From positions 139,380,361-139,444,360 of the forward strand of contig NC_079492.1 in NCBI RefSeq assembly GCF_020520425.1: a DNA stretch of 64,000 bases, given 5' to 3'. How positions within the stretch are numbered: position 1 is the stretch's first letter; each line of letters starts with the position of its first letter. Below are positions 2,608 through 63,040 of this stretch, in pieces. The notes beneath the pieces are model-generated. The model did not search any database, had not been told where the DNA came from, and worked only from the letters and a program-made list of their open reading frames with translations. The DNA comes from Spinacia oleracea. Lineage: Eukaryota; Streptophyta; Magnoliopsida; Caryophyllales; Amaranthaceae. A program made the translations under genes and the position numbers.

Positions 2608-3007
2608 TGTTATAACCAAACGCGTGCCACGAACGATTGGGAACAAACCCCGCGAATACAATATAGAACAAATAGCAAAAACAATAATAAAAGACACAAG
2701 TGTTTATGAGGAAATTTAGATTTCCTCCCCTCAAATATTATCGTTGATGATTCCTCTCACCAATGTATTTTCCCCTCTTATTTTCTAGCTAGGCCTAAAC
2801 CCCCTTTTATAGGCTAAACTAGAAACCCAAGTCTACTAGAATTATACTTGCTCCCCAAGTCTAAATAATTCTAGAGATTGTTACCTACCAAAATATATCT
2901 ACTTTCCTAATTACAATTCTAATTAAACTAGGAAAACAAGATATTAAATCAAACAAGTCCGTTTCGTATTTTTGTCAACTTAATTAAGTTGTGTTTATTT
3001 CCTAACA
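2608..3007 (-). mobile_element. Solo LTR with perfect 5-bp target duplication
   Basis: A 400-bp unit bounded by TGTTATAACC and TTTCCTAACA, flanked on both sides by ctatt (2603-2607 and 3008-3012). Read on the minus strand it starts TGTTAGGAAATAAAC and has a clear TATA-like box (cctataaaag), so transcription would run leftward. No internal region or second LTR is present, which fits loss by recombination between the two LTRs. The intact duplication suggests that this loss happened within one insertion. The terminal sequence resembles copia-type LTRs, but the superfamily is inferred. Confidence 0.85.
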
Positions 3008-3597
3008 CTATTCCTGGCTTGCTGCTAAGGTGTTTTAGGTTTCTCTTACTTTTTCCCTACTCTAAGTACTTCACACACAAATAATAATCTAAAAAAATCG
3101 TGGGGGTTGAGTCTAATGTCGTCTGTTGAGGTTGTTAGTCTTATTACTATAAGTTGTCAAATCGTGATGTCATTGATTATAAATCGGCTCTAATTAGTTT
3201 AAGTCTTGTTAGAAAATGATTTACTTATGATGAGCGTTAGATCGGGTTAGTTTTTAACATAGTCACGTAGTATGATCGATTGAGGATGAGAAGACGGGTT
3301 GCAAAGAGCACAAAAGCTTTAGAAGGCTTTCGGCAACGGGTGGAATAGTCAAAGGTTGCATTTGCTTTGACAGGAAACTAAAGAGACTTTGGTAGGCCCA
3401 AAATTCTGCTAGAAGGAGACAAAATGAATCACCAACGTTTAATCAAATATTCAAAGGAAATTTTTGATGGAGAGTTGATTACTATAGCTACCCGTACCAG
3501 TTCACTACTTGTATACTTTGTAAATTAATTAAGAGAAGCTAATTTTTTTGTTAACTTCTTAAGAAATTTATTTGGTTATCACTTTGACGTTTATATT
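3008..3597. other. Intergenic, nothing recognised
   Basis: AT-rich sequence with stops in all frames. I see no conserved element here. Confidence 0.5.
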
Positions 3598-3687
3598 CAT
3601 GTAAATGGTGATTAACCGAGGAAAGATTATCTCGTAGAATATCATGTAAACGGTAATTAATCAAGGAAAGATAATCTCGTAGAATAT
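3598..3687. repeat. Two-copy 45-bp tandem repeat
   Basis: Two adjacent 45-bp units begin catgtaaatggtgattaacc and catgtaaacggtaattaatc and differ at only a few bases. Confidence 0.75.
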
Positions 3688-3727
3688 CAGATAAGCCACT
3701 TTTCATGCTCTATGGGAATTTCAACGT

Positions 3728-4438
3728 ACCAAGGAAGTTTTAGAGCACGTACATTGGTTGGCTCTTCAAAAGACCTCTTGGAGGGCTTTCCACTCTCTCT
3801 CTACCATTATCTCTCTACAAGATACACTCAAGAATTCATTCCTAAAAACACCCCAACATTGGTGGGTTCTTCAAATGAGCTCTCCAATATTTTTTTTTTA
3901 CCATTTGGTGGTCCCATGTCAATTCTTCATTTATTTTATATATATCAAACAATGTTAATACTCCGTATTTATTGGTAATAACTAATAAGTTAAGTAATTA
4001 TGACAGAAAATTTTAGGTTACTGCAATATTAATAATAATTAGATTTTATTTTCAACCAATGGATTAAAAAGAAGAAGACAAAATAATTTTAGTTGCAAAT
4101 AAATAGCCCAATATTAGACTTGTTAAATACAATAGGGAAGGAAAAAAGAAAAAGTAACAATTATTGTAGATTTTCCGTAAAAAAATATTAAACATATTGG
4201 TTTTTCATTTTATTGAATCATAAATATTAACTTAATTGTATTTTTATCCAAAGTTACTATCTACTTAAAAAAAAGTTACTCCTCAATTTTCAACAAGAAC
4301 CAACTCTTGGAGGGCTCTTGGGCAAGAGCTATCTTGAAGTAGCTCGAGCTACTCAAGGAGCCCCTCAAGAACCACTCAAGAGCCTCAATGTTGGCCAAGA
4401 GCTAGTTCTTATTGGAGAGCTACTCCAAGAGCCCCGAC
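3728..4438. repeat. Possible non-autonomous DNA transposon with inverted ends
   Basis: The left part (3728-3870) and right part (4290-4438) share inverted words built on 'ggctcttgg/ccaagagcc' and 'acattggt/caatgttgg'. The right part also holds repeated pairs of ctcttgg and ccaagag that could fold back. The interior is AT-rich and non-coding. I could not find a clean target duplication or exact ends, so the class is unassigned. Similar 'gagccaacattgg' repeats are often Harbinger- or hAT-derived in plants, but that is only a suggestion. Confidence 0.35.
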
Positions 4439-18800: not shown

Positions 18801-21482
18801 AAAGAAGACTCTTCCATGTCTATTCTTTTGACTTTGGTGTGCTTGTTCGCCTGATGGTATAGTTTATCCTCTTTATAGTTTATTTTTCCCTCTTTTATAG
18901 GAAAGGGGTAAAGTTTTTTCCTTGATAATCTTGGTAATCACTCTATGAATAAAGCTCACAAAGGATGCAGAGTTTTATTTTTATGTTATAATGGTCCCTA
19001 AACAGACACTATAAAAACGACATACTAGTCTAGGACGAGATATAAAATTTAAAGTGTGAAGAGAAACTAACGTTATTTTTCTTCATGCCCCTGTCTACTA
19101 CTAGTGATTTTATGTTGTTACTATTCAATTAAGTCATTTTTAGGCTTCTGCTTCACTTCTTAACCTCTATAGAGTGTACATGTATTTCTTGGAACAATTT
19201 TTTTTCTTGCCTTCATGTTTTCTCTCTGGAAGTTGGTTTTATTAACCCTTACGGTTGATGGAAAATCTGCAAATAGGTTTCTTTTATAGGGAATATATGG
19301 AACACTTGAAAGCAAACTGATATACCCTTTAAATCATACAGTTACCGTTGAATATTAGTGTATGCTAGCAGACTGTTCAACTTGTAATGTAACTTATACA
19401 TTACCTGCATTTATTCTAGTTCTTTTTACAGGAACTTTTGTTTTCAATTTTGCTTCATTAAGAACTAGTTTGACTTTGTTTTTCCCTCTGGTGGTGGAAC
19501 TACTTCATTGAAACTAAATCTTGTATTGATTTGATGTACATGAATGAATTGCAGGGGCCAGACTGGTGGCATCTCTTATGGCCAGTGACGATGCGGTGAT
19601 CAAAAATATTCCAGGGACATTACTTGAGGCAAGATCTATTTTTTTACATGTATCTATTTCTGTCCTTCATCCTAGTTAGGTCAAGTATGCCAAAAAAACT
19701 GCTTGTTTGCTTGCCATCATAATAGAAAATTTCCTTGTTGTTGTGCCTATCAAGTTCCTTTTCAGAAGTTTTTTCTTATGCAGACTTTAAGTATTTTGAT
19801 GTGGAGCTTATTCTATAGTTCAACTAGTTATTCTTGAGTATCTACAGTTTATATTAATTTGATAGAACGTATTTATCATTCTTTTGTGAAATATAAGTAT
19901 AAGGTTTCTTAAAGGGTGACAGATACATTGGTTTGTTGTGCTGGAGAGTGGAGACTGATGGTATTTTCCCATTTTCAATGATTGATGGTATTGTACATTG
20001 ATAAACCCACTTATAGTTTACCATTTACACATCCTAGTACAGGCTGTACAGCAGACACATACTTCACAGACTCTATGATGTTATGACCTACTTATAGAGT
20101 GTCTTTACTTTATCCAAGCCCTTAAATAAGAATGAATATCATCTACGATTCTCATACTCCATAGTAATTCACCTAGTTTTAAGGATTAAAACTAAGTCTA
20201 ATATTTGCCTAAAATATTCGAACATATTCATAGAACCTTAGGTGCAATTCTAGTTAATTAAATCTAAGGCGGATCCGAATTTTGCAAGCCGTTTAATTAA
20301 GGACAACTATCATCTACGCTTCACTCTTTACCAAATTTTACAAATCCAGCAATTACGAAGTACTCTATGTCTCTGTGCACGCCACTTGAATTTAGATGAA
20401 TTTCATCTACGCATCTCAAACTTTTGACACCATTCCAATTTATATGTCCAGCAATTACATACACAATGACGCTTGAAACAATAAAACTTATATGTGCTAA
20501 ACCCAAACAGGCTAAGTTCCTCGATTTATTTAACTCTATACATCCTAGAAACACTCTTCTATCTTTGTGAAGCTCTTCGCTACCCTTCAATGTTCTCAGT
20601 TTCTCACTTGTCATAATCAACTAATTATCTTCGCTACCCTTCAATGTTCTCACTTGTCATAATCAACTAATTATCTTCGCTACCCTTCAATGTTCTCACT
20701 TCTCATAATCAACCCCCCTCCCCTTCCCTCCCCTCCCATTCCTATCCTATGAACAATTATCATCTCTAAACTCAGTACAGGAAGTTACTGTAAGAATAAC
20801 AAAACAAAAAAGCTACCTAGTATTAGTGTATATTACGATAGGTTATTGCAAGTCTATTTCATACTTGTATCTACACATTTTTGCACGTTTATATCATTCT
20901 ATCAATTCTACCCCAGTCTCCTTACACAAATCCCCAATTTATTAGAAATGCCATTCCTTTGAAAGGGGCCAAACTGTTGTTTTATGATCAATCAATCAAT
21001 CCAAACCCCAAGTTAAAAATTCAAAAACCCACAACAAAACAGCAGAAAAATTGTACCTTCCTGGGAAGAACGCGGACATTTTCGACAATGTCATCAGAAT
21101 CAAAAGTAGGTTTGACATGGAGATCAAAAAGGCGAGACAAGAAGAAAGAGGAACCCATTTGAGCAACAAGTTTCTTGATCTGTTTAGTTTGAACTGAGAT
21201 CAACCTCTTATTCCCACCATGTTGCCCATCTTTCTGCTCAAAAACAATGCTGGGTACCCGGCCCGCTTTCCTTTCATGTGCGCATATCTTCTTGCCGGAT
21301 TCAGAGCGAGGTATGGCAGTGATTGTCTCAGACGGGTCGGGTTTTGGGAACTCGGGGAGGTAAGTGAGTGGAGCTTCTGGGTCGTAAGGGAGGACTAGGG
21401 CGGCGGCGGATTGACTGAAGTAGCGGAGGTGGCGGTGGAGGAGGAGGTGGGTTTTGCCCAGTAGTGGGCGGTGGAGAACCAT
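15813..21482 (-). CDS. Organellar ribosomal protein bL25 family (L25/Gln-tRNA synthetase anticodon-binding fold)
   Basis: Predicted mitochondrial large-subunit protein of the bL25 family, which binds 5S rRNA in bacteria. Exon 1 is 21482-21057, exon 2 is 16541-16412 and exon 3 is 16033-15813, all with GT-AG junctions, giving 258 aa. The N-terminus (MVLHRPLLGKTHLLLHRHLR) is basic and lacks acidic residues, as expected of a mitochondrial targeting peptide. Core motifs: KKICAHERKAGRVPSIVF, then QTKQIKKLV and FFLSRLFDL in exon 1; LNVTFIRAPSDALLKVEVPL and VFRGEDVSPGLRKG in exon 2; KKTVKYLCPADIIPPYIDVD and VHPALKLLQSKDEP in exon 3. It resembles the Arabidopsis protein encoded by At5g66860 in order and length (from memory). 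Intron 1 is about 4.5 kb and holds a CACTA end and gene-like fragments. Confidence 0.93.
17018..17175 (+). mobile_element. CACTA (En/Spm) transposon terminus
   Basis: The sequence cactactacaaaacgtcact has the classic CACTA end. It is followed by repeated GCCACG words (17040, 17064, 17117, 17156), like the subterminal binding sites of this superfamily. No matching inverted end (ttttgtagtagtg) was found downstream, so only one end is supported. It lies in intron 1 of the bL25 gene. Confidence 0.7.
18280..19635 (+). pseudogene. Unidentified exon-like fragments inside the bL25 intron
   Basis: On the strand opposite the host gene there are acceptor-like sites followed by short open stretches. One is ttttacag before a segment containing MSSKLVEDAAHE (about 18660-18695). 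Another is ttgcag at 19550-19555 before a segment reading ARLVASLMASDDAV and IKNIPGTLLE. Around 18369-18665 a roughly 150-bp unit containing the first acceptor is tandemly duplicated. I do not recognise the source gene. The pieces could be captured by the CACTA element upstream or be a decayed gene. Confidence 0.3.
18369..18665. repeat. Two-copy tandem duplication of about 150 bp
   Basis: Both copies begin aagaattcatgcacctagat and end gaagctaagctatgtcctc. They differ by scattered substitutions and small indels. Confidence 0.85.
20575..20713. repeat. Three-copy 46-bp tandem repeat
   Basis: Three units begin cttcgctacccttcaatgtt. Copies two and three are nearly identical; the first has an extra 'gtttctca'. 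Located in intron 1 of the bL25 gene. Confidence 0.85.
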
Positions 21483-21679
21483 TTTTGGGAGGAGAGAGAA
21501 AGGGTGGGTGTGGACTGTGGACTGTGGAGGGGTTTGCGAGGGTTTTTTGGAGGAGGAGAGTGAGTTTGACTCAGTGAGTTGGTGGGGATTTCAAACTCGT
21601 TTTCAGGGTTTGGATGTTGGGCTTGGAGTAAGATAAAGGAGTTTTTTGTTTTGGGCTGTCTGTCTCAAAGCATAGCCCA

Positions 21680-30995: not shown

Positions 30996-31244
30996 CTAGT
31001 CTTATATGCACGCAATGCGTGCGAAATTATATAAAAAAGCTTAAAAATTTATTATTACAACTAATCACAACAAATATTGGGCAAGAAAATATTCGCAAAG
31101 TTCATATTTAAAAACGTTAATACTATAAGTCAATTTCGCGATGTAAGTTCATATTTAACTAAACACAACAATTGCATCAATCAAAAAATCTATGTACGTA
31201 AGAAATGTAAATAATAATACAAAGTAATAAACATTTTACATTAG

Positions 31245-31385
31245 TCATTGAAACTGAATTTTGGCAGATTGATCCTCGAAGAAAACGTGTATGCATCCCG
31301 AATTATCCAATCGAAAGTTGATCTCCTTGACGGAGTCTCCCCTGGAGGTTGTAGGCAGAAGCTAGCCTGCAGCATTGGCTTCATG
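31245..31385 (-). pseudogene. Captured GT47 exostosin-type glycosyltransferase fragment
   Basis: The frame reads MLQASFCLQPPGETPSRRST then FDW, and after a frame change SGCIHVFFEDQSAKIQF. This matches the exostosin/GT47 signature (FCLQPPGDTPTRRS and AGCIPVFF) of xyloglucan galactosyltransferase (MUR3-like) proteins. Only about 45 residues remain, with at least one frameshift. It sits near the 3' end of the Helitron. Confidence 0.75.
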
Positions 31386-33168
31386 TACCTGATCAAATCA
31401 ATTAAGTATCATTCATCACTAATGACCATATCTAAATTGCCACAAATATTTATTTTCAGAGACTGATTATGGCCATTTTGAAAGAATCAGATATCCTTTT
31501 TTTTCCTGTTTCTCTGCTAGCACCAAATGCATCTAATATACCCGAAAAAACAGAAAAAAATATAGATAGTGTGCACTTAGCTACCTAGTAAATGAATGAG
31601 GAATTCAAGTATATATTCTATGTTGTGCTCAAATTTTCAACAAACCCTTTGTGCTCTTCATGTATCGGACTTCTTAAACACAAATTCAATGGCTGCAATG
31701 TAAGTAATTTTGTATGCAAAGGATTGTAGCAAGATACAGAGTAGAAAAGCTCGAGTTTTGTAGCACAGTCAAGTCACAACTACTCAAACCCAAGCTCATA
31801 CCAAGCATATAATCTTTCGAGTTCAAAACTTTCCAAGTTTTCTCAGTTAGCTTGTTGCAGGAATCAACACATTTTTTCTCCTTGTTTTTTGGTGTATTGT
31901 TGATCACCCTATCTAGATTGCTAGTTTGGAAAGTTCACACAAAATGTATTCTTTCGTGCATCTAACAAAGATTATTAAATAGATTATTTTCTTGTTCCAT
32001 TCTTAGGTTAATACTATCACAAAAACATGAACCTCGTACCTAAACTTGGAAACTATTATTGTTAAGTAACACAATTAACATTATAAAAATGAAAACACAT
32101 AAATAAATAGGTTCTGAAAACACATGGCTATTCATAAACACATTCCCACTATACATTTGATCATACTGAACCTCCCTAAACCAGTTGTATGTTCATGTTC
32201 AATGGTAGCATTCAACTTCTTTTCGCTAGTTTTACCCCAAAAATCCTAAATTCTCCCCAAATTTGTTACGCATCTCTGCGGAAAGATTAATTTCATGATT
32301 TCAGTAATTGTTTGATTAATTATGTGAATTGTGTAACGACAATTAGGGTTAATTAGGGGAATGAATTCGCAATTCAGGGTTAAGTTTTAGGGGTTTTGAT
32401 TAAATTGAAAAATTAACTATAAATAAGGACCAATCAAATTCAAATTCCTTGATTGTGGCCTCTTTTTCCTGGTGTGACTTTAGTCTTTCAGCTGCATATG
32501 TCGCTTTCTAGATACTCGGTCTAAGCCTCTAATTTGAATTTTAATGAGCAGGAAGTCTCTTGCATTGGCTAGAAGATAATAAGGCTGTTTGGTCTAAAGT
32601 AATAGCATTTCTTGCTGTTAGCCATGGGTAGGATACAGTGATACACCTTATCAGTGTTAAGATTTAGGAAGAGTGCGAACAGTAGCAATAGCTTTAATAT
32701 GAGTTGGACCTAAATTAATTATGATATATGTCTAAGTATGGATATTGTATGATGAATTTAGAACTTATAAATTGACAGCCTCACAATAATTCCTTATTGA
32801 TCATTTGATGCAGACAATATTAAATTTGTTGATGACCTATGGTTATTGTGGATATTGATTTCAGTGGCACACACTTGGTACTTATATTGAGAGAAGGTCA
32901 AACGTTAAACACACTATTGAGAGAAGCTACAAATTATATTTGACTCTCACTATTCTTCACAATTCTTTCAGAAAGTATAAGAATAACATTATTCTTTACA
33001 ATAATCGCTATTCCATTTATCCAAAATTCTCTACAATAATGTCAAATTCTTAACAAAGGTTTGCACAATTCTAGATTATAACCCATCGCACAATTATGAA
33101 CCCTATAAAAACTCCAAAAAGATAAAGAAAAAATAAAGGAAAAATAAGAGAGAAAGATCGTTATATAC

Positions 33169-33322
33169 CTTGAAGACAGTCACAATTCTCAGCCTCCTTA
33201 CGAAGTCAATAAGCTCGGCACCTTCAGTATATTAATCTTCTGCCCAGTTATTACCTGCCCGAAGACACTTTTATCAGGTCGGAAAATCTGACTGTAAGGT
33301 CCAGACCGGACACTATCCATGG
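33169..33322 (-). pseudogene. Captured beta-tubulin exon fragment
   Basis: The minus strand reads [20 protein letters not shown] then VFGQ. With frame changes it continues [13 protein letters not shown] and KEAENCDCLQ, directly followed by a splice donor (caag|gtatat). This corresponds to about residues 95-131 of beta-tubulin. As I recall, the first intron of plant beta-tubulin genes lies right after this CLQ. So the fragment keeps the exon 1 end and the start of an intron. Several indels make it non-coding. Confidence 0.85.
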
Positions 33323-33628
33323 TTCCCGTTCACTCCCCTCTATAATTCAGAAATGTAAACGAAAGAGTTATTTGCAATGAAGACTATAAGACGCATTTGA
33401 TTAAAAAAAAAAAAAAATATAGGTCGTTGACTATGAAAATGAAAACAGAGGCAGTGTATCTCCTTGAGAATTTGCATTCTCCTGGGCACATTGAAAATAA
33501 AGTTGCACATGCTAAATAAAGCTCAAGCAGAAAGATAGATGCGTTTTAGAAATTATGACAAACTGTTTTAAAGCAGAGAAGAAATTAGGCTTTAATAATT
33601 GAAATGGAATGAAAGAATTAGAACTCAC

Positions 33629-33838
33629 CTAATTATTTAATTTAAAATCAATATGGGGGATGTGTTTAATCTTGTACCAGTCCTCCCCATTTGGTTCTTT
33701 GTATTTTTGTTCTAGGTATTGATGAAGCCCTCGACATACACTGATCTCAAGTGTCTGAAGTGATGTGAGGTTCCACATTGATTCAAGAAGCGATGTCAGG
33801 GAACCACAATCTGTGAATACAATCGCATCAAATTCATC
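33629..33838 (-). pseudogene. Captured NLR leucine-rich-repeat C-terminus
   Basis: One open frame reads FTDCGSLTSLLESMWNLTSL, QTLEISVCRGLHQYLEQKYK, then EPNGEDWYKIKHIPHIDFK and a stop. This is the standard C-terminal end of CC-NBS-LRR resistance proteins (CxxL...GEDWxKIxHIPxI). It has no break in this stretch, but the rest of the gene is absent. A ttcacag just upstream could be the original acceptor or a capture edge. Confidence 0.8.
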
Positions 33839-34377
33839 TGTAACAGGCTATCAGCTCTATTCTGAACTCTGTATATGTATATGAACTGCTGCTACAGACT
33901 TTAGTGTTAAGGGATAGAGAATATAGTGTACCTCTATTGTTTGGAAGCAACGGGTAGCGCTGTATCAGCAGTCAGCAGATCACCAATATGATTGGTCTAG
34001 CTTCTGTTGATTAAGACCCAGAATTTCAATCACCAATATGAGAAATTGATCAAGGAAAATATAGAAACAAAAACCCCATAAAAAACAATCAAAACCCACA
34101 ACAATTTAGATCAAAATTGAAGTAAAAAACTGAAAAAGGGCATACTTTTTGCGGGCTTTGCCGACTTGAAAACTGAAAAGCCATCCAAAAATTCAAGAAG
34201 CAATAGAAAACCAGCACTAAAACAACATAGCCATATTGTTTTGCAAGACCAGCAATGAACTTTTAGCAAAAATCAGCACCCAATTCTAAATTTTGACGAT
34301 AAACAAAAACCCAATTTCCCACAAATTCAACAAAACCCAAAACCCATTTCAGAATCACGTCAAGAATCAGAATTTAG

Positions 34378-34645
34378 CAAATTCAAAATCAAAAGGGAGG
34401 GAAGAAAAACCCTAATTCAACAAATTCGAAATCAAAGGGGAGGGCAAAAAAATCCTACTTCAACAATTTCGAAATCAAAAGGGATCGAGGGCAAAAAACC
34501 CTAATTCAACAAATTCGAAATCAAAAGGGAGTGCAAAAAAACCCCTAATTCAACAAATTTGAAATCAGAAGGGAGGGTCAAAAAACCCTAATTCAACAAA
34601 TACGAAATCAAAAGGGAGGGCAAGAAAAACCCTAATTCAAAACCC
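34378..34645. repeat. Tandem array of about six 40-45-bp units
   Basis: Each unit has ccctaattcaacaaattcg and aaatcaaaagggagggc with small changes. It lies within the Helitron, toward its 5' side. Confidence 0.85.
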
Positions 34646-34850
34646 AATAAATTGTACTGCAATAGTGAAGAATTAGAAGAATTACGCCTAAACAAATTGG
34701 ATAATACATATTACAACAAATACTATCATTACATGAAAATAATAAAGGAAATGAGGGAAGGTTTTACCTTCAGATCTGAACTTCTGATGGAAATAGAAAA
34801 GCGAATACGGTGGTTGCGCTAAGGAAGCGGCGGAGAATACGGTGGCCGGC

Positions 34851-34935
34851 GACTTCGTTGTCATCCTCGTCGATCTCCTCTGCGACTTCGTTGTCATCCT
34901 CGTCGATCTCCTCTGCGACTTCGTTCTCGGCCTCG
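34851..34935. repeat. 33-bp tandem repeat, about 2.5 copies
   Basis: The unit starts gacttcgttgtcatcctcgt. On the minus strand it would encode repeated acidic residues (EEIDEDDNEVA). It lies near the Helitron 5' end, in a short open frame of unknown meaning. Confidence 0.75.
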
Positions 34936-35232
34936 TCGTCGTCGCAAGATGCGCCTAGCTCCACCGCTTTGCTAGTGGCGGTGTTTCATCTCCGGAGAAC
35001 AAAAGTTCAAAATGTGAGAGATCTGAGGAGCAGAAATTTCAAAAAATTAAAATGCGAGAGGAGAGAGAAAGGGAGAGATGAAGAAAGGCAATGGAGTCAA
35101 AGAGGGAGAGAGAGCTCGTCGAAGGAGGGCTGGGGTTTAATTCAAAGGTGGGGGTATTTCTGTAAATTTTCTAGGGGACACGAAAAGTTATTTTACTATT
35201 ATGCCCTCAGCTGTTCCTTTATATAATAGAGA

Positions 35233-38400: not shown

Positions 38401-41400
38401 TCATAAGAAGTATGTAAGCTGCTCCTTTTTCCTCGACCCTCCTTCCCCATAAAGCTCATTCCACTGCTTCAGCTCGCTCATTATTGCTCCTGCGGATGAA
38501 AAGCTAGCAGCAACCTGCAAACCAACAGGGTAGTCAATGAAACAGCTAGCTTCTATAATCACCAACTTCTGGAAAGAATAAGTTGCTATCATATAACTGT
38601 ACTAAAAGAATGAGGATACTTTGGATTGGAGCACCAACGTACCTAAGGTATAACTAACTAAATTAACTACCAAATTATATAGACTCAACTACTATAATCA
38701 ACCACATATGGCATCTGAACCAGCATTGAGTAACAGTGATAAGGATGAAAAAGCACAAGGACGAGTAAGGGATGGCGAAAGCTACTAAAATGGTTTCTCC
38801 CTCCATTTTATTGGGGGGTTTTTACATTATCGGAGCACATGGTGTGTATTTGGAGATGTTATGAACAACGGAGTACTAGCACGTATTCAAGGAGTGCCGA
38901 GTACAACATGAACAAGCAGTAGCTCCCTGTAAAAAGTTATATTTTCATTAAGAAATGAGAAATCCAGGTGTTGAAGCAGAAAACCTACCTGGTTCTTAGC
39001 CTGCTTAAAATCTTCCAGGTTTAAAGGCCTCAAGGAAATTACTCTCTCCTTAACGCCTTCCTTCTTCTGTGAACCATTCGAACTTTGGTTTTGTTCTGAT
39101 TCCTGTTTTTCCTCCTGGGAATGAATATTATATTAGCAGGAAGAAGCATAAACACAACAGAGAAAAACCCTTCCAATGGATTGTGAACTTACCATATCTT
39201 TCACTCTCTCTTGCTGTATTAACTCCCTAACAGGTCGATAAGCAGCAGTGGTACAGAGATTCTACCAAATAGTAATGTTTGTCACAATCCACAACCAAAA
39301 TTCAGAGAGTTAATTCTTCAGTTTTTAGTCACAAATCATAAGAATAAAATGGACAACACCTAACAAACTTAAAACTCCACGAGAACTTACCTTGAGATCA
39401 CTACCGCTATATCCTTCTGTCATAATTGCAATCTCCTTGAAATCTAGTCCTTCTTGAACCTTCTCTTTAGACAAAAAAGTTCTCAAGATATTCTCTCTGT
39501 TCTCTGCTGATGGGAGTCCCACCATTATCCTGGAAACGATAAATGATGAACTACATGAGTCAAGTCCTGTCAGAACGCACTCTAACATTGCGGAGATCAT
39601 TTCAAAACTTTGTTCAACAAGAGCATAATACACTGACAACCCGTTTGGTAGCAGGCCATAAATGATGTCAATGAGAATGAATTTGTACGTAATTTCCCAT
39701 GATAATGCTATTACCATCCATTACCATTTGGGGAGTCGTATTAGATGGGAATGCAAATTTATGAAGAAAAAAACCAAGTTTGAGACAAGATTTCATTACC
39801 ATGGACATCACGATGTTATTTTCTTCTTAAATAACACTTAGATTTATTCCAATTCCCACCATTTATTACCGGCTACCAAACAGGCCGTAAAAGAAAATTT
39901 TATTATGCAAATCATTTAAGAAAGACTCGAAGCTGCATAATACTCGAATTACCTTCGTTCAAAACGCCGTATAATAGCTTCATCAAGGTCAAATGGCCTA
40001 TTGGTTGCAGCAAGAACAAGGATTTTCTCACCTTGTTTGGTAGCAAGCCCATCCCAATGTGTCATAAACTCGTTCTTTATCTTTCTCATAGCTTCATGCT
40101 CACCAACCCTGGTCCTTTGTCCAAGCATACTATCAACTTCATCTACAAATATAATTGTTGGGGAAACTTTAGCTGCAAGGCTGAACAACGCCCTAACATT
40201 CTTTTCATCTTCTCCAAACCATTTCGACGTGATGGTAGACATAGATACGTTAATAAAACTTGCTCCGGCTTCTTTGGCTATAGCCTTAGCCAGCATGGTC
40301 TTGCCAGTACCAGGAGGCCCAAAAAGCAAAATTCCTCGACAAGGTTTCAGAAGTCCTCCCTTAAACAAATCTGGTCTACGTAGTGGGAGCATCACTAGTT
40401 CCTGCAGTGACTCCTTTGTTTCATCTAGAGCGCCGATATCAGCAAATGACACGGAAATCTCACTAGCAAGAATGACTTCTGGCCTTATCCGCCTCTCGAA
40501 CTCATTGTCTGGTAGTACTTCCTGTTCGGCACAATGAAGTGCGTCAGACTAAACCATTCACTTTGAAGGTGATGATTGAATACCCTAGTCTGGCATTTGG
40601 TTGGGCACAAAAATACTAATTCAAGCTTATTTCCTCTCCATCAAAGCATTAGAAAATGCATTGAAATGATATCAATCACGGCAAAATCATTGAGGCTCCG
40701 TTCTATTTGACTTATTTTGACTGAACATATATTATCTGAACTATCTGTGAACTAAACTGAACTTGTTTTATCTAAAATAAACTTATTTTGTCTGAAATAA
40801 ACTTATTTGTGTGTGAAAATGTCTAAAAAATAACTTATTTTTCTGAACTTAAATCATCTAAACTATCTGAACTTAACTGAACTTATTTTGTCTAAAATAA
40901 GTTAAAATAAGTCGAACAGAACGGATAACAACAATTCAATGTACTTACAGGGATCTTTGGACTTGCAGCCTCGTTATCTGCATCCTTTGACATTGGCACA
41001 GAAGCTTCTTCACTACCTTTCTTTTCTGGAGCTGCATCTTCAGCTTTAGTTTCTGGCTTAACATCTCCACGTGCTCCCTATAATTACAGCATGATGCACT
41101 TAGCTAGTGTTAGAAAATGACTCCTTAGCTTGCACATATTACTCCAATCTGATTTAAAACGTACCTTAGAAGACCCGGCACGTGATTCCAGCTTTGATGT
41201 ATCTTTACCAAATGATTTACGTTCCTGAAACACGTTCAGTCCATGGGACAAACTGTTCAACAGCCCAAAGCAAAGAAGAGAGAGTTGGTTAGGACAAAAG
41301 TCATGAAAATAGGACGGACACATTAAACAGAGAAAATAGAAGACCTCTGGGATGAAATCAGGAGTTTCCCGTTCCTATATTCATGCTTATTATTCATCAG

Positions 41401-44400
41401 ATGGTAAGATATTGCTGATACTACAATTTCTTCAATGTATTTGCTGATAACCAAGGCATCTTCCACATTTATGGAACCGAGATCATCACATTCAACATCG
41501 TTTGCAGCTAGAACTTCATTTATGTGGTTTCTGTTATCCTGACCCTGAATCATCTTCAAGTCAACCTCCAATTGAGACTTCCAACTGACTAGACGGGTTT
41601 CATCTTCAGGTGGCTTGATTTCAATGTTATAAGGAAATACATCGATTAGCATTTCATCAATCTCATTGTCATTGCTGTCTGGATGTGTTATCCGTGAACC
41701 TAGTATGAGTACCGGTCCTGAAAGTTTCTGTAACATTTTCTGAAACAGTCTATATAGCTTTTGAGATCTGAACAATAGCATGTCAACATCTCTCAAATAC
41801 AAAATGATTGGATAAGTTCGAGATACAGAGACCATGACCTGTCCATAAAATAACACAAAGGTTATACCCTTGACAACTTTCAGAAATATAAAAAAAGAGC
41901 ATAGCAAGCAGAATAACAAGAATAAAAGGCACCTCACCTTGTAAAGTGATTGGATGAGTAGCTTTTCATCAACAGACCAGCTACTTGTCCGCTTAAGGGG
42001 AGCTGAAGATGAACAAAAATATTAATAAAGACTAGAAAAAAGCAAGACATATACGGTGGCATCATACTCACCATTAGTAATAACTTGCATTCCAGATAAT
42101 AAGCCCAAACATTAATAAAGCAACTACAGTCCTCAAGGGAAATTGAAGTGAACCGTGATTATGTCAGGGAATTCAGAACAATATGCAAACTTTGAAATTA
42201 ATTGCAATAGACATGAATCATCTTCCAATAAGAACATAAGATATCAACTTTGAAAAGATGCCAAGAACATTTTACCATATTCAAACCTCTAATTCCATGA
42301 TAGCATAATTAACAGACATAAAACACCGAAAATAGCAGGTCAGCATGAGGGAAGACATCAACCATGCAGCGTGAGGTCCGTGACAAACCAAAATTTAGCA
42401 AGTCTGATTAAGAAAAGGAAAAAAGACCTGAATTTGTAGGAGAGCCTTGCAAAGGTAAATCATTAATATTGGCAGAGGCAGAAGCATTCCTGCGAAGCTT
42501 AGGAGCATTAGAAAAGCCATCCATATTCCTGGGAACATAAACAGATGGTATTAGTGATGCATAGTCTGAATAAGACTCCAGTAGATACTGAAACGGGTCT
42601 CGTTACATGGCCAGAAGTTATATTACCTCAGATTGTCCACCCCGCTTCCCTGACGACGCAAGGTACCTGTAGAAAATCAGAGAAATGAACATGAAACACT
42701 AATCATGCAGGAAGGCCAGGAAACAGAACAAACTGGATGGTTACTTCTTAATATCAATTTTGTTTGAAAATATTACATCTAAAATCGTAACCATCCCTAA
42801 TTACTCTACTCCCTCTTCCCGGATACTTGCAACATGTTGACTGACACATTTGCCGAGGCACTAGTTTAACCGTAATTATACGCAATTACATATTACTAAA
42901 AGCTTTAAAAAGTTGATATTTGAAAAATATATATTAAGACTTATCCAACAACATATTAAACAATGACATTTGATTTTATATACTTCCTCCGATCTGGAAA
43001 TATCGCACCATTTGTTTTTTACACTATTCACAATACGACTTTGACCATTTTTTGTGATTTGTACGTAAAGAAATTTTAGTCGTATGGGGTCATGTTAGAT
43101 TCGTATAGAATTATAATTTTTACTTGCACATGATTTGAGATATTAAGAGTCAAAGTAATAGTTAGAGGAGTAAAAGTCAACCATGACGCGATATTTCCGG
43201 AATGGAGAAAGTATTAGAAACAAAATTTGTCAAAGTTAATGTATGAATAGTACAAAAGTCAAAGTGTTGTGAGTATTATGTAACGGAGGGACTACATAAC
43301 TCCAGTTACGTTTGAAAAACACAAGATTCTATAGCACATGAACAAGTTACCTTTGGGCTCTTCCTTTGCTGGCAGTATAGAAAAAGACCCAAGTAGACCT
43401 GAAAGGCGCTCCAATGTAGTCTCCGAGGTGGACCTTTTGAAGGACTAAAAGGAAACAATGGATAAGATGATTTGCAGAGTATAATATTTGGCATCATGAT
43501 GCAGCAATTAATTCTCTTCATGCACTGATGCACACAATTATAGGGCTTGGAAAACAAGCACAATCACCATGTAAACAGAACAAAAGGAAACACCAAAACA
43601 GTAAAAAAAAAAAAAAAAAAACTTACAGATTCATTATTGACACCAAATTTGCTTTGAATCTGCAAAGAAAAGCAGTTGAAATCTAATAAGTAAGAGAGTA
43701 TCAAGCTAAATTTTCTTTTGGAAAAGTACTCATTTTTTATGTTTTGACAGAAACATTTCTTCTGCAGTTGCTAACCTTCAGTACAAAGTCAGTGACATCC
43801 AATAACAGTAACTTTGCCTCAAAAAAATGTGCTAGAGCCTTTGCAAGCATTTGCTGATAAATTTCTACATAATATAAAACACAGCCTCTTCTTTAGTCTT
43901 AAATCCATAATAGATTAGCCAACAAAAAAAGGAAGGATAATTACTAGTCGTAGAAGACTAACCAGCAGGGCCTGAGAGTAAAATAGCCCGGCTTGCTGGA
44001 GACAGATTTCGAGTATACTTTGAAAAGTCACCTTTCCTCAGATAGAAACAAGCAGCACTTGTTAACAGAACCCTTGTTTGCTCACTGTCAACAAGCAAAT
44101 CAGATTAAGACATCCAAGATTACTTGTGAAACACGACTTAAAAATTGCAATTTACAAAGACAAAGCACAAACTAACTTGAATCCTATATTATCATACAAC
44201 TTTATACTTGCAATTTTTCCTTTCATTTACACCGCAACCTCAACATTCATTCAAGTAAATAGACAATCCTACTAACGACCAGCAAGTCTTGACACAATCA
44301 TAGCACGTATAATAACTATTTACACACAAAGATAGATACATATATCATTGCCCCCCAAAAAAGTCACATTGACCCCAATACTGGTTTGTTCTCTGTAATC

Positions 44401-60107: not shown

Positions 60108-63025
60108 TTTTTTTTTTTTTGACATAAGCTTAAACAAGCAATTAAGGTAAATTACAAAACGACAAACATAAAGTAGAAGCTGCCTTTGCAAGCTTGTGCG
60201 CCTGATGAACTCTCTGCCTATCAACCTTGTTAATACAACACCATAGAAAGGTCTTTCCAATTCTTTGGATTTCCGCAAGCGTCCAGATGAGGTTGATATC
60301 CGTAATCTCCATCGATCTCAGTAAATCGACCAAACGTAGAGAATCAGTAAAAATTGTGACTCTATCAAACCCGGCTTGAGACGCCCACCGCAGACTTAAT
60401 AAACAAGCTAAAACCTCAGAGTGGAGAGCAGAACTTGTCAAACCTGGCTGCGCACCCCCTAAAATTCGATCACTTGGAACCTGTTGCCTATCCAAATACC
60501 AGCCCATACCAGCAATCTTTGAGCTTTTAAACCAAGACCCATCAGACACAATTATAGTAGTGGGATTTCCATCTTCAATCCCTGATAAGATAATCCTAGA
60601 AAAGCACGGAGGAACGATCGGATCCACTTCAGGAGGATGGAAAAACCTTAAATAAGGTGACGGATGCTGGTGCAATATTGAAATTTGATCCAAACCTGAC
60701 TTGATACAATTATGCATTGCCGAAGAAGAAGTAGATTGACCTCTAAAAACACGATTATTCCTAACCAACCATAAACTCCAAAGAGTACTCATAAAGTACA
60801 AACACCTCGGACTATTCTTACCATCCTGACTTTGAAATCGTCGGATATAAAACATAAACCATTCTTGGAAAGACATGGCTTCATTGAAATTTGAATGGAT
60901 AGCGAGTGAACCACTCCTCCAAACATCCTGAGCAAACTTGCAAAACCGAAAAAGATGCTGAAGATCCTCATCTCCTGCATTACACTCGTCACACACCGTT
61001 GACAGCTGAACACCCCTCCTCCCTAAATTAGCCTTAGTAGCAATCCCATTATGAAGGAGCTTACAAATGAACATTTTCCATTTAGGAAGAATCTTCATAG
61101 ACCATAAGGATTTATAGAAAACGGACTCTGAATTCAACCCATAGTCACTAGAATCTCCTAAAACTAGTATGGCATACGCAGACTTAACAGAAAGCTTACC
61201 TGATATATGGTATTTCCAATAAAGTAAATCCTCAGCATTAGAAGAAGGAAGTTCCATACTCAAAATTCTCCGAGCATCCGAGAATTCAAAACTAGAATTG
61301 ATCTCTGCTAAATTCCAGCCTTCCCCAGAAGGAAGCAAGAAATGGTGTACTTTCCAATCCTTAGCTTGCCTAAGAGTGACATTAGAACTGAAAACTGGAG
61401 TACCTCCGTTCACCCACTTATCCCTCCCTGCAACAATTGACTTTCCGTTACCCACTTTCCAATTACACCCTTCAAGAACCAGGTTGGAAGCTCTACCCAA
61501 CCCTCTCATACCCCAAGAAAGACGCCTACCAATAAGAGAAGCTTTAATCCCGGTCCTTAGAAGTTTCAAAAATTTCCTATCCACCACTCCAGCTAACAAC
61601 GAGAGAGGGTTATTATTAAGTCTCCAGACCTGCCTCATAAGTAAAGCCTTATTCAAGAAAGAAGCATTCCGTATTCCCAAACCACCAAGACCTCGAGGAA
61701 GCTACAAAGTTCTCCTATTAACCCAATGAAAACCTGAACCTGCTCTCCCAGCCCAGAAGAATCTAGCAATAATAGAATCTAACTTTGACGATATTAACAA
61801 TGGAACCTCCATGCAGCTGAAGACGTGAGAAGCCATAGCAAGAAGAACAGAGTTAATCAAAACTAATTTCTGAGATTGAGAAAGGTTGCAAGAGTTCCAA
61901 GCTGAGATCTTAACTGCAACCTTATCCACAATAAATTGAAAATTGGAATGTTTCTTTCCCACCAAGTCAATTGGAACTCCCAAATGTGTTCCTATATTCT
62001 GAACCAGTTCCATCTTTAAAATACCTTTGAAACGAAGCCGACTTTCCTCAGGAGTATTCGGACTTACTTTAAAAAGAGATTTCTGCAAGTTAAGTTGTTG
62101 ACCTGAGATTCCACAAAACCTCTGAAGAATGTTCGAGACTGCACAACAACTTTCATTTGTAGCATTGAAGAAAAGAAGAGCGTCATCCGCAAAGAAAAGA
62201 TGAGTCATTTGCGGGCTTCCTCTAGTCAATTTAATCCCCGTAAACTGCTTAAGATCATTCCCTAACTGCAACATTCTAGATAAAATATCCATGCAGAAAA
62301 GAAACAAAAAAGGAGATAACGGATCACCTTGTCGAATTCCGCAACGAGGCCTAAAATTTTCCGATGTGTGGCCATTAATTAGCACTTTGTAGGAGACTGT
62401 CGAAATACATTGATGAACCAATCGGATCCAATGCTGAGGAAAACCATAACCCCTTAAAACTTGAATAAGAAAGCCCCAATGAACTCTATCATAGGCCTTG
62501 CTCATGTCTATTTTCAACGAAGCAAGATAACTTCTCCCCCTATGATGATAATTTAATTTATCAATAGCTTCATGACTCAAGAGGATATTGTCAGCCATGA
62601 AACGACCAGAAATAAAGGCATGCTGAGACGGTGAAATAATGCTTGGAATAAGAGCCTTCAATCTCACCACCAAACACTTAGAAGCGCATTTATACACCGT
62701 ATTACACAAACTTATAGGTCTAAGATGACTCGTATCCTCTGGAAAGTCTCTCTTTGGTATCATAACCAATATCGAATGATTCCATTCTTTAAGAAGGTAG
62801 CCTGAAGAGAAAAAACTCCGAACTGCTTCACAAACCGACAATCCTACCTTGATCCAATGCTTTTTGAAAAAGGCCGCAGTGAAACCATCAGGCCCCGGAG
62901 ATTTAGAATCTCCCATTGAAAACATAGCATCTCTAATTTCGATATCCGAAAAACCTCTTTCTAGAAAAGAAACTTGATTAGCTGAGATTTGTGGCAAGCC
63001 CAACTCTCTTATTACCATTTCCACA
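60108..63025 (-). mobile_element. LINE (L1-type, RNase H-bearing), 5'-truncated
   Basis: Non-LTR retrotransposon, 2.9 kb. One frame runs from 63024 to 60142 on the minus strand, interrupted by a single in-frame TAG at 61702-61704. Order: reverse transcriptase (SPGPDGFTAAFFKKHW, LRPISLCNTVYK, GIRQGDPLSPFLF, catalytic FADDALLF), a zinc-binding RVT domain (ILPKWKMFICKLLHNGIATK, then CDECNAGDEDLQHLFRFC), and a C-terminal RNase H (VSDGSWFK, HSEVLACLLSL, FTDSL) as in plant L1 lineages. A poly(A) tail (T-run at about 60105-60120) follows a very short 3' tail. The element is flanked by a perfect 15-bp direct repeat tgctctccttatgtt (60093-60107 and 63026-63040). ORF1 and the endonuclease are missing through 5' truncation. 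The near-intact frame suggests a recent insertion. Confidence 0.95.
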
Positions 63026-63040
63026 TGCTCTCCTTATGTT

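Follow-up and report, generated by a model that had tools for sequence, protein, structure and literature searches.

A non-autonomous Helitron of spinach carrying pieces of several host genes

The window analysed here is a stretch of 64,000 nucleotides of the spinach (Spinacia oleracea) genome, C6:139380361-139444360. Its positions 30996-35232 constitute a complete 4,237-bp non-autonomous Helitron, located on the minus strand, with the 5' TC at 35232 and the 3' CTAG at 30996. Read on that strand, the unit starts with TCTCTATTATATAAAGG and ends with GCACGCATTGCGTGCATATAAGACTAG, and is flanked by an A before and a T after. Element coordinate x corresponds to window position 35233-x. The features of the element are as follows.

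30996-35232, minus: complete non-autonomous Helitron; three full-length copies with the same ends, A^T flanks, empty sites for two of the three
35203-35232, minus: 5' terminus (TCTCTATTATATAAAGGAACAGCTGAGGGC); first 22 bases at 422 places (at most one mismatch), 28 of 30 bases in common with a Rep-bearing element
33977-35232 (element 1-1256), minus: family backbone, the 5' region with tandem repeats; common in whole or part to the relatives L004, L006, L007 and L008
33381-33976 (element 1257-1852), minus: segment that includes an NLR gene 3' end, with an LRR-type frame at 33629-33847; the 2.1-kb L004 has it but lacks the other pieces
32957-33332 (element 1901-2276), minus: beta-tubulin exon 1 piece (codons ~70-127) and intron start; 82% to C6:140100200
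32444-32908 (element 2325-2789), plus: probable prolyl-oligopeptidase piece, part of an exon and an intron, antisense to the Helitron; 89-91% to C3:136444368
32111-32451 (element 2782-3122), minus: leader piece, a probable 5' leader with intron; 85% to C4:188872585-188872898
31246-32094 (element 3139-3987), minus: GT47 (exostosin family) piece, most of an intron and ~143 bp of the next exon; 83% to L066
30996-31245, minus: 3' tail of ~250 bp with the CTAG end; an exact query 1-250 match in 12 of the 53 rows of the whole-unit search, nearly so in six more
31008-31022, minus: 3' subterminal hairpin GCACGC-ATT-GCGTGC; seen in the sequence and its fold, terminal 29-mer at 770 places

Ends, copies and insertion sites

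The hairpin has a 6-bp stem and a 3-nt loop and stands 12 nt before the 3' end. Its calculated DNA fold of -7.4 kcal/mol compares with -3.7 ± 1.56 kcal/mol for shuffled sequences (z-score -2.37), 5 of 200 shuffles being as good. The features that characterise Helitrons are thus present in the unit: TC/CTRR ends, a GC-rich hairpin some 10-12 bp ahead of the 3' terminus, and insertion at an A^T site that leaves the target unduplicated. An earlier, sequence-only reading had placed the element at 30996-35232, which proved exact to the base, and the TC after A, the CTAG before T and the hairpin near the end that it described are all present in the sequence. It had left the strand unstated; the ends are read on the minus strand, and a plus-strand orientation was rejected.

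The genome searched comprises 894,210,420 bases in 242 contigs. The search with the whole unit scored 40 of 1,458 candidates, so that the numbers of copies and relatives given here are lower bounds. Three full-length copies were found: the one in the window, C2:106175937-106180174 and C4:109871023-109875263. The other two are 99.8% and 98.7% identical to the window copy at aligned bases, and the pairwise differences among the three amount to 10/4,237, 57/4,235 and 59/4,235 aligned bases. The substitution rate of Arabidopsis, 7e-9 per site per year, was used for dating; at this rate the differences place the common origin of the copies, as a rough inference, at ~0.2 and ~1 million years ago. 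The element is a young Helitron. All three copies keep A|TC and CTAG|T at different genomic places, as the sequence-only reading had expected when it proposed a search for further copies with identical ends. Nothing in their 1.5-kb flanks is colinear, the sole match being a dispersed, inverted 127-bp stretch (77%) between the left flanks of the C2 and C4 copies.

Empty sites were sought for the window and C2 insertions, and 40 of 406 and 40 of 720 candidates, respectively, were scored. For the window site, the query consisted of 300 bases from each side of the copy joined together. Among the non-self loci listed, 37 of 38 match through the junction, reaching only 12-27 bases beyond it, presumably because the invaded repeat ends there. 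At the C2 site, all 38 of the non-self loci listed span the junction, mostly with 300 bases on the far side. One uninterrupted locus was read per site, ...CCA|TTCTTA... for the window and ...CTTA|TACATC... for C2, both undisturbed; the target is therefore A^T, without duplication. These empty sites are paralogous copies of the invaded repeats rather than orthologous sites, and cover two of the three insertion places. At the third (L003, C4:109869523-109876763), the 3' CTAG directly abuts, on the left flank, the 5' end (TCTATTATATAAGGG...) of another related Helitron. The C4 copy is thus inserted at the A^T of its neighbour's own terminus, and a similar 3'-to-5' abutment is observed in L007.

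The first 22 bases of the 5' end occur, with at most one mismatch, at 422 places genome-wide (201 + 221), and the 3' 29-mer, with one free base, at 770 places (380 + 390). Since the reversed controls gave 0 for both motifs, and since neither 30-nt end matches any other part of the window at more than 19 of 30 bases, the terminal motifs are not due to chance. Pairing of ends was followed on C1, where 29 of the 38 exact 5' ends among those listed are within reach of listed 3' ends. A family 3' end lies on the correct side within 15 kb for 13 of these 29, which defines units of 2.6-7.7 kb; among the ends listed, none of the 29 is paired on the wrong side or with the wrong strand. In 30 fetched 5' ends, the base before TC is A in 28, T in one and C in one. 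Past the first 150 bases, these 30 loci fall into 22, 24 or 25 groups, depending on the threshold. A common set of ends therefore carries very varied contents.

The unit encodes no Rep-helicase: its longest stop-to-stop frame has 148 codons, and lies on the strand opposite to the element; none of the Rep matches listed falls in the unit. The Helitron Rep domain has at least 154 matches in the genome (150 of 353 candidates scored). Two copies of a Rep-bearing element could be bounded, C1:101203824-101216346 (12,523 bp) and C4:5059288-5072027 (12,740 bp), both with A^T flanks and each enclosing an open 1,024-codon frame with a Helitron Rep domain. Their homology begins at the 5' TC and ends at CTAG-T, with 99.96% identity over the last 2.5 kb, and both carry the family hairpin followed by CTAG before T. 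Compared to the window element, 28 of 30 bases are identical at the 5' end and 25 of 30 at the 3' end. This 12.5-12.7-kb element of C1 and C4 is a plausible candidate for the mobilising partner.

In a third 1,024-codon frame, at C3:34.89 Mb, Rep (Helitron_like_N) is accompanied by a PIF1 helicase domain. The locus was not retained as the partner: the family 5' end nearby pairs with a 3' end at L084:3351 in a separate 3.6-kb element, and the hairpin past the helicase (L072:1955) has no clean CTAG. For the Rep frames L087, L088 and L089, the 3 kb read downstream contain no family 3' end.

Backbone and captured gene pieces

The backbone contains tandem repeats of a 43-bp unit (6.2 copies, window 34371-34640) and of a 33-bp unit (34849-34938). 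The genome holds many partial relatives of the element. The ~2.1-kb L004 consists of backbone, NLR piece, 3' end and ~280 unmatched bases, and the other cargo pieces are not in it. A locus at C2:85.07 Mb extends from the NLR to the leader pieces, with GT47 unmatched in the 1.5 kb beyond. L063 has the leader and GT47 adjoining the 3' tail, while L083 has NLR, tubulin and part of the oligopeptidase piece. Because the relatives carry subsets of the cargo, its history would fit serial uptake and loss. The sequence-only reading had listed three gene pieces on one strand. The NLR, beta-tubulin and GT47 pieces are indeed there, on the minus strand, but the pieces are five in all and the oligopeptidase piece lies on the opposite strand. 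Four of the five could be traced to donor loci: GT47, tubulin, oligopeptidase and leader. Introns are retained in the cargo, which indicates capture from DNA.

The GT47 piece matches Pfam Exostosin_GT47 at an expectation value (E) of 1.1e-6; the score of 28.6 bits is under the family cut-off of 33.4, and the donor gene backs the identity. A PDB search with this piece gave no match at E up to 1. The donor, L066 (C6:151060014-151063226), has two exons, and its frames, split by the intron, match Exostosin_GT47 at E 1.9e-36 and 1e-17; its 5' end lies beyond the stretch read. In the element, the intron starts 25 bases after the splice site and the acceptor CAG|GTACATG is kept. Eleven loci match the GT47 piece: the three full copies, six loci (L062-L065, L067 and L068) where it stands beside a whole or partial Helitron 3' tail, the gene L066, and L069, which has a short piece only, 7 kb from L064.

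The beta-tubulin piece matches PDB tubulins at E 3.3e-8 and has no Pfam match. In the 351 bases read at the donor, C6:140100200, the frame is open (...CDCLQG) up to the GTATAT intron start. The element follows this exon-intron boundary at 82%, but its exon lacks 10 bases at one point and 16 at another. Other beta-tubulin-like frames of 143-194 codons match the piece more poorly. In the relative L083 the exon is still in frame (Pfam Tubulin, E 6e-10), so the damage to tubulin came after capture.

At the oligopeptidase donor locus, C3:136444368, a frame on the opposite strand, neighbouring the captured exon, matches Peptidase_S9_N (E 8e-7). Two further frames at this locus, including the captured one, have no Pfam match, and the naming of the piece is therefore given as probable. 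On the window plus strand, the piece keeps ...VIVDIDFSGTHLVLILREGQTL, compared to ...VIVDVDFSDTHLVLILREGQTL in the donor. The leader donor, C4:188872585-188872898, is located ~150 bases upstream of a 361-codon frame (C4:188.87 Mb), and the piece probably corresponds to the 5' leader of a gene. The 361-codon frame has no Pfam or PDB match; presumably it resembles plant 2-oxoglutarate oxygenase-like proteins, which serves as a lead only. The junction between the oligopeptidase and leader pieces shows an 8-base overlap of their matches. Such an overlap is compatible with repair-type filling and is suggestive rather than a test; filling of this type has been argued for an insect Helitron in the available portions of PMC6544945.

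The NLR frame spans 72 codons (element 1386-1604) and has no Pfam match. Its PDB matches are weak, the best being Roq1 at E 0.016. In a protein search it matched open frames of 1,173, 1,011 and 775 codons at C4:172.64 Mb with 50-56% identity. From these similarities, we assign the piece to an NLR gene with fair confidence. In the C2 copy, a stop codon interrupts the frame. The sequence-only reading had pointed to a resistance-gene piece in the mix: an NLR 3' end is present, but it is just ~70 codons long, no donor could be pinned down for it, and NBS-LRR capture by a Helitron has already been listed in rice. Pieces resembling this NLR 3' end, at 77-80% to the element, are found at C5:46503131, C2:40900573, C5:78369633, C2:91574571, C3:136891768, C1:81585976 and C1:63964776, with one TGA stop in each of the six that are among the matches listed by the protein search (C2:91574571 is not among them). 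It looks as if another repeat also captured and spread an NLR piece.

Interpretation and alternatives

The unit is almost certainly a non-autonomous plant Helitron which carries pieces of at least five host genes. The copies, the ends, the empty sites and the location of the donors elsewhere support the earlier proposal of a gene-shuffling Helitron of the maize kind. An autonomous relative with similar ends would supply the Rep-helicase, which would probably recognise the 5' TC and the 3' hairpin-CTAG ends, the C1/C4 element being the putative source. The enzyme would copy one strand, presumably in a rolling-circle step, and insert the product between A and T without target duplication. Earlier, the lineage acquired at least five host-gene pieces as DNA by a route that can be conjectured, probably one by one, as the subsets held by relatives suggest. 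After that, the finished unit spread en bloc, reaching at least three places. The cargo pieces most likely have no protein function: no frame on the minus strand of the unit exceeds 88 codons, and several of the short coding pieces are broken.

Several observations weigh against parts of this interpretation. For the NLR donor, the nearest DNA outside the full copies and partial relatives (77-82%) is in broken or repeated copies. Two of the 30 fetched 5' ends lack the preceding A. The 3' end of the candidate partner is just 25/30 identical to that of the element, and of the 17 Rep matches listed for the part of C1 up to 111.5 Mb, none is followed by the exact 29-mer 3' end within 10 kb, so that the partner end is similar rather than identical. 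Finally, the bounded partner copies were read at their ends; the middle 4.5 kb, with the frame, is outside the sequence fetched, and the PIF1 scan covers the C3:34.89 Mb locus.

A segmental duplication, or three decayed local genes, could mimic a mobile element, and the tubulin donor does lie on the same chromosome, ~0.69 Mb away. The remaining located donors, however, map to C3, to C4 and far away on C6; at all three places of insertion the identity is bounded by TC and CTAG, the 1.5-kb flanks have no colinear match, and uninterrupted sites exist for two of the three. In our reading the empty sites and flanks refute this explanation, to which we attach a very small probability. The decayed-gene origin that the sequence-only reading had named as a possible refutation likewise fails: the located donors are elsewhere, and the whole assembly stands at three places without colinear flanks. 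CACTA elements too carry host-gene pieces. The same is described for Pack-MULEs in the available portions of PMC13317346, and the unit might accordingly be taken for a gene-carrying transposon of either class. Against this stand the lack of target duplication at the two sites examined, the non-inverted ends with a 3' hairpin and CTAG, and the match of these ends to a Rep-bearing element, all of which make a different transposon class extremely improbable.

More weight, though still little, can be given to the idea that the host uses the Helitron cargo, either through a chimeric transcript or through small RNAs against the donor genes. Four of the five pieces are in sense orientation on the Helitron strand, and donor splice sites are kept (the GT47 acceptor and the tubulin intron start). 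In maize, chimeric transcripts from Helitrons (PMC4528327) and Helitrons as reservoirs of small interfering RNAs against donors (PMC13317346) are described in the available portions of these reports. The small minus-strand frames, the two deletions in the tubulin exon, the NLR stop in the C2 copy and the antisense oligopeptidase piece argue against host use, which is unlikely. Slightly less likely again is its specific form, in which the mosaic would be transcribed and spliced through the GT47 acceptor and the tubulin donor site, with the leader as start, or would yield small RNAs reaching the donors. If true, a recent Helitron would bring an NLR group, a tubulin and a cell-wall glycosyltransferase under linked regulation. 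The favoured interpretation remains a non-autonomous Helitron with scavenged gene pieces.

Comparison with known Helitrons and other features of the window

Capture of gene pieces by plant Helitrons has long been known, as available portions of PMC4528327 and PMC13317346 relate. The maize gene-fragment Helitrons, as far as covered by the same part of PMC4528327, are alike in carrying host-gene pieces, with chimeric fusions and 'thousands of gene pieces'. The spinach element differs in its genes, seemingly in its family of ends, in having one antisense coding piece and in having four donors located. In rice, NBS-LRR is among the captured genes in Table 2 of PMC2575219 (seen in part), as in the element described here; the species is another one, and here the NLR piece is joined to four other gene pieces. 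The rice family Mothra (PMC4683698, from the portions available) likewise combines TC/CTAG ends and tandem repeats with a hairpin located 13 bp before the terminus. It contains a gene piece in reverse orientation, and its ends resemble those of a separate sister family, RepHel, comparable to the candidate partner in spinach. In contrast, the spinach element carries ~2.7 kb of cargo from five genes, and contents vary widely among family members. Stepwise acquisition has been described for Sfru_Hel1A of Spodoptera in the part of PMC6544945 available, where relatives hold subsets of the captured segments, as observed here. In the spinach family, however, there are losses too.

A survey of spinach transposable elements counted 1,297 Helitrons with HelitronScanner (PMC6337768), and the available portions of that survey contain no description of this element or its cargo. 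Among the papers listed by searches of the spinach-Helitron and Helitron NLR-capture literature, no title or abstract opening describes it, which is not proof of its being unpublished. The element is an ordinary example of the gene scavenging known from maize and other plants, although the individual element is new, and it leaves current understanding unchanged. It offers a clean case outside the grasses, with ends, empty sites, copies, four of five donors and a candidate enzyme source in one genome. Gene uptake by Helitrons could usefully be tested on the relatives with cargo subsets, for instance through their junctions.

Three other features of the window lie outside the element, all on the minus strand. 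At 60142-63033, two adjacent frames contain a reverse transcriptase domain (RVT_1) and, behind it, zf-RVT and RVT_3, resembling a non-long-terminal-repeat retrotransposon. Frames of a probable AAA-type ATPase gene occupy 39325-42021, where the frame scanned (39952-40548) matches Pfam AAA at E 6.7e-40. A Ribosomal_L25p frame at 21024-21590 (E 1.4e-7) is probably a host gene.

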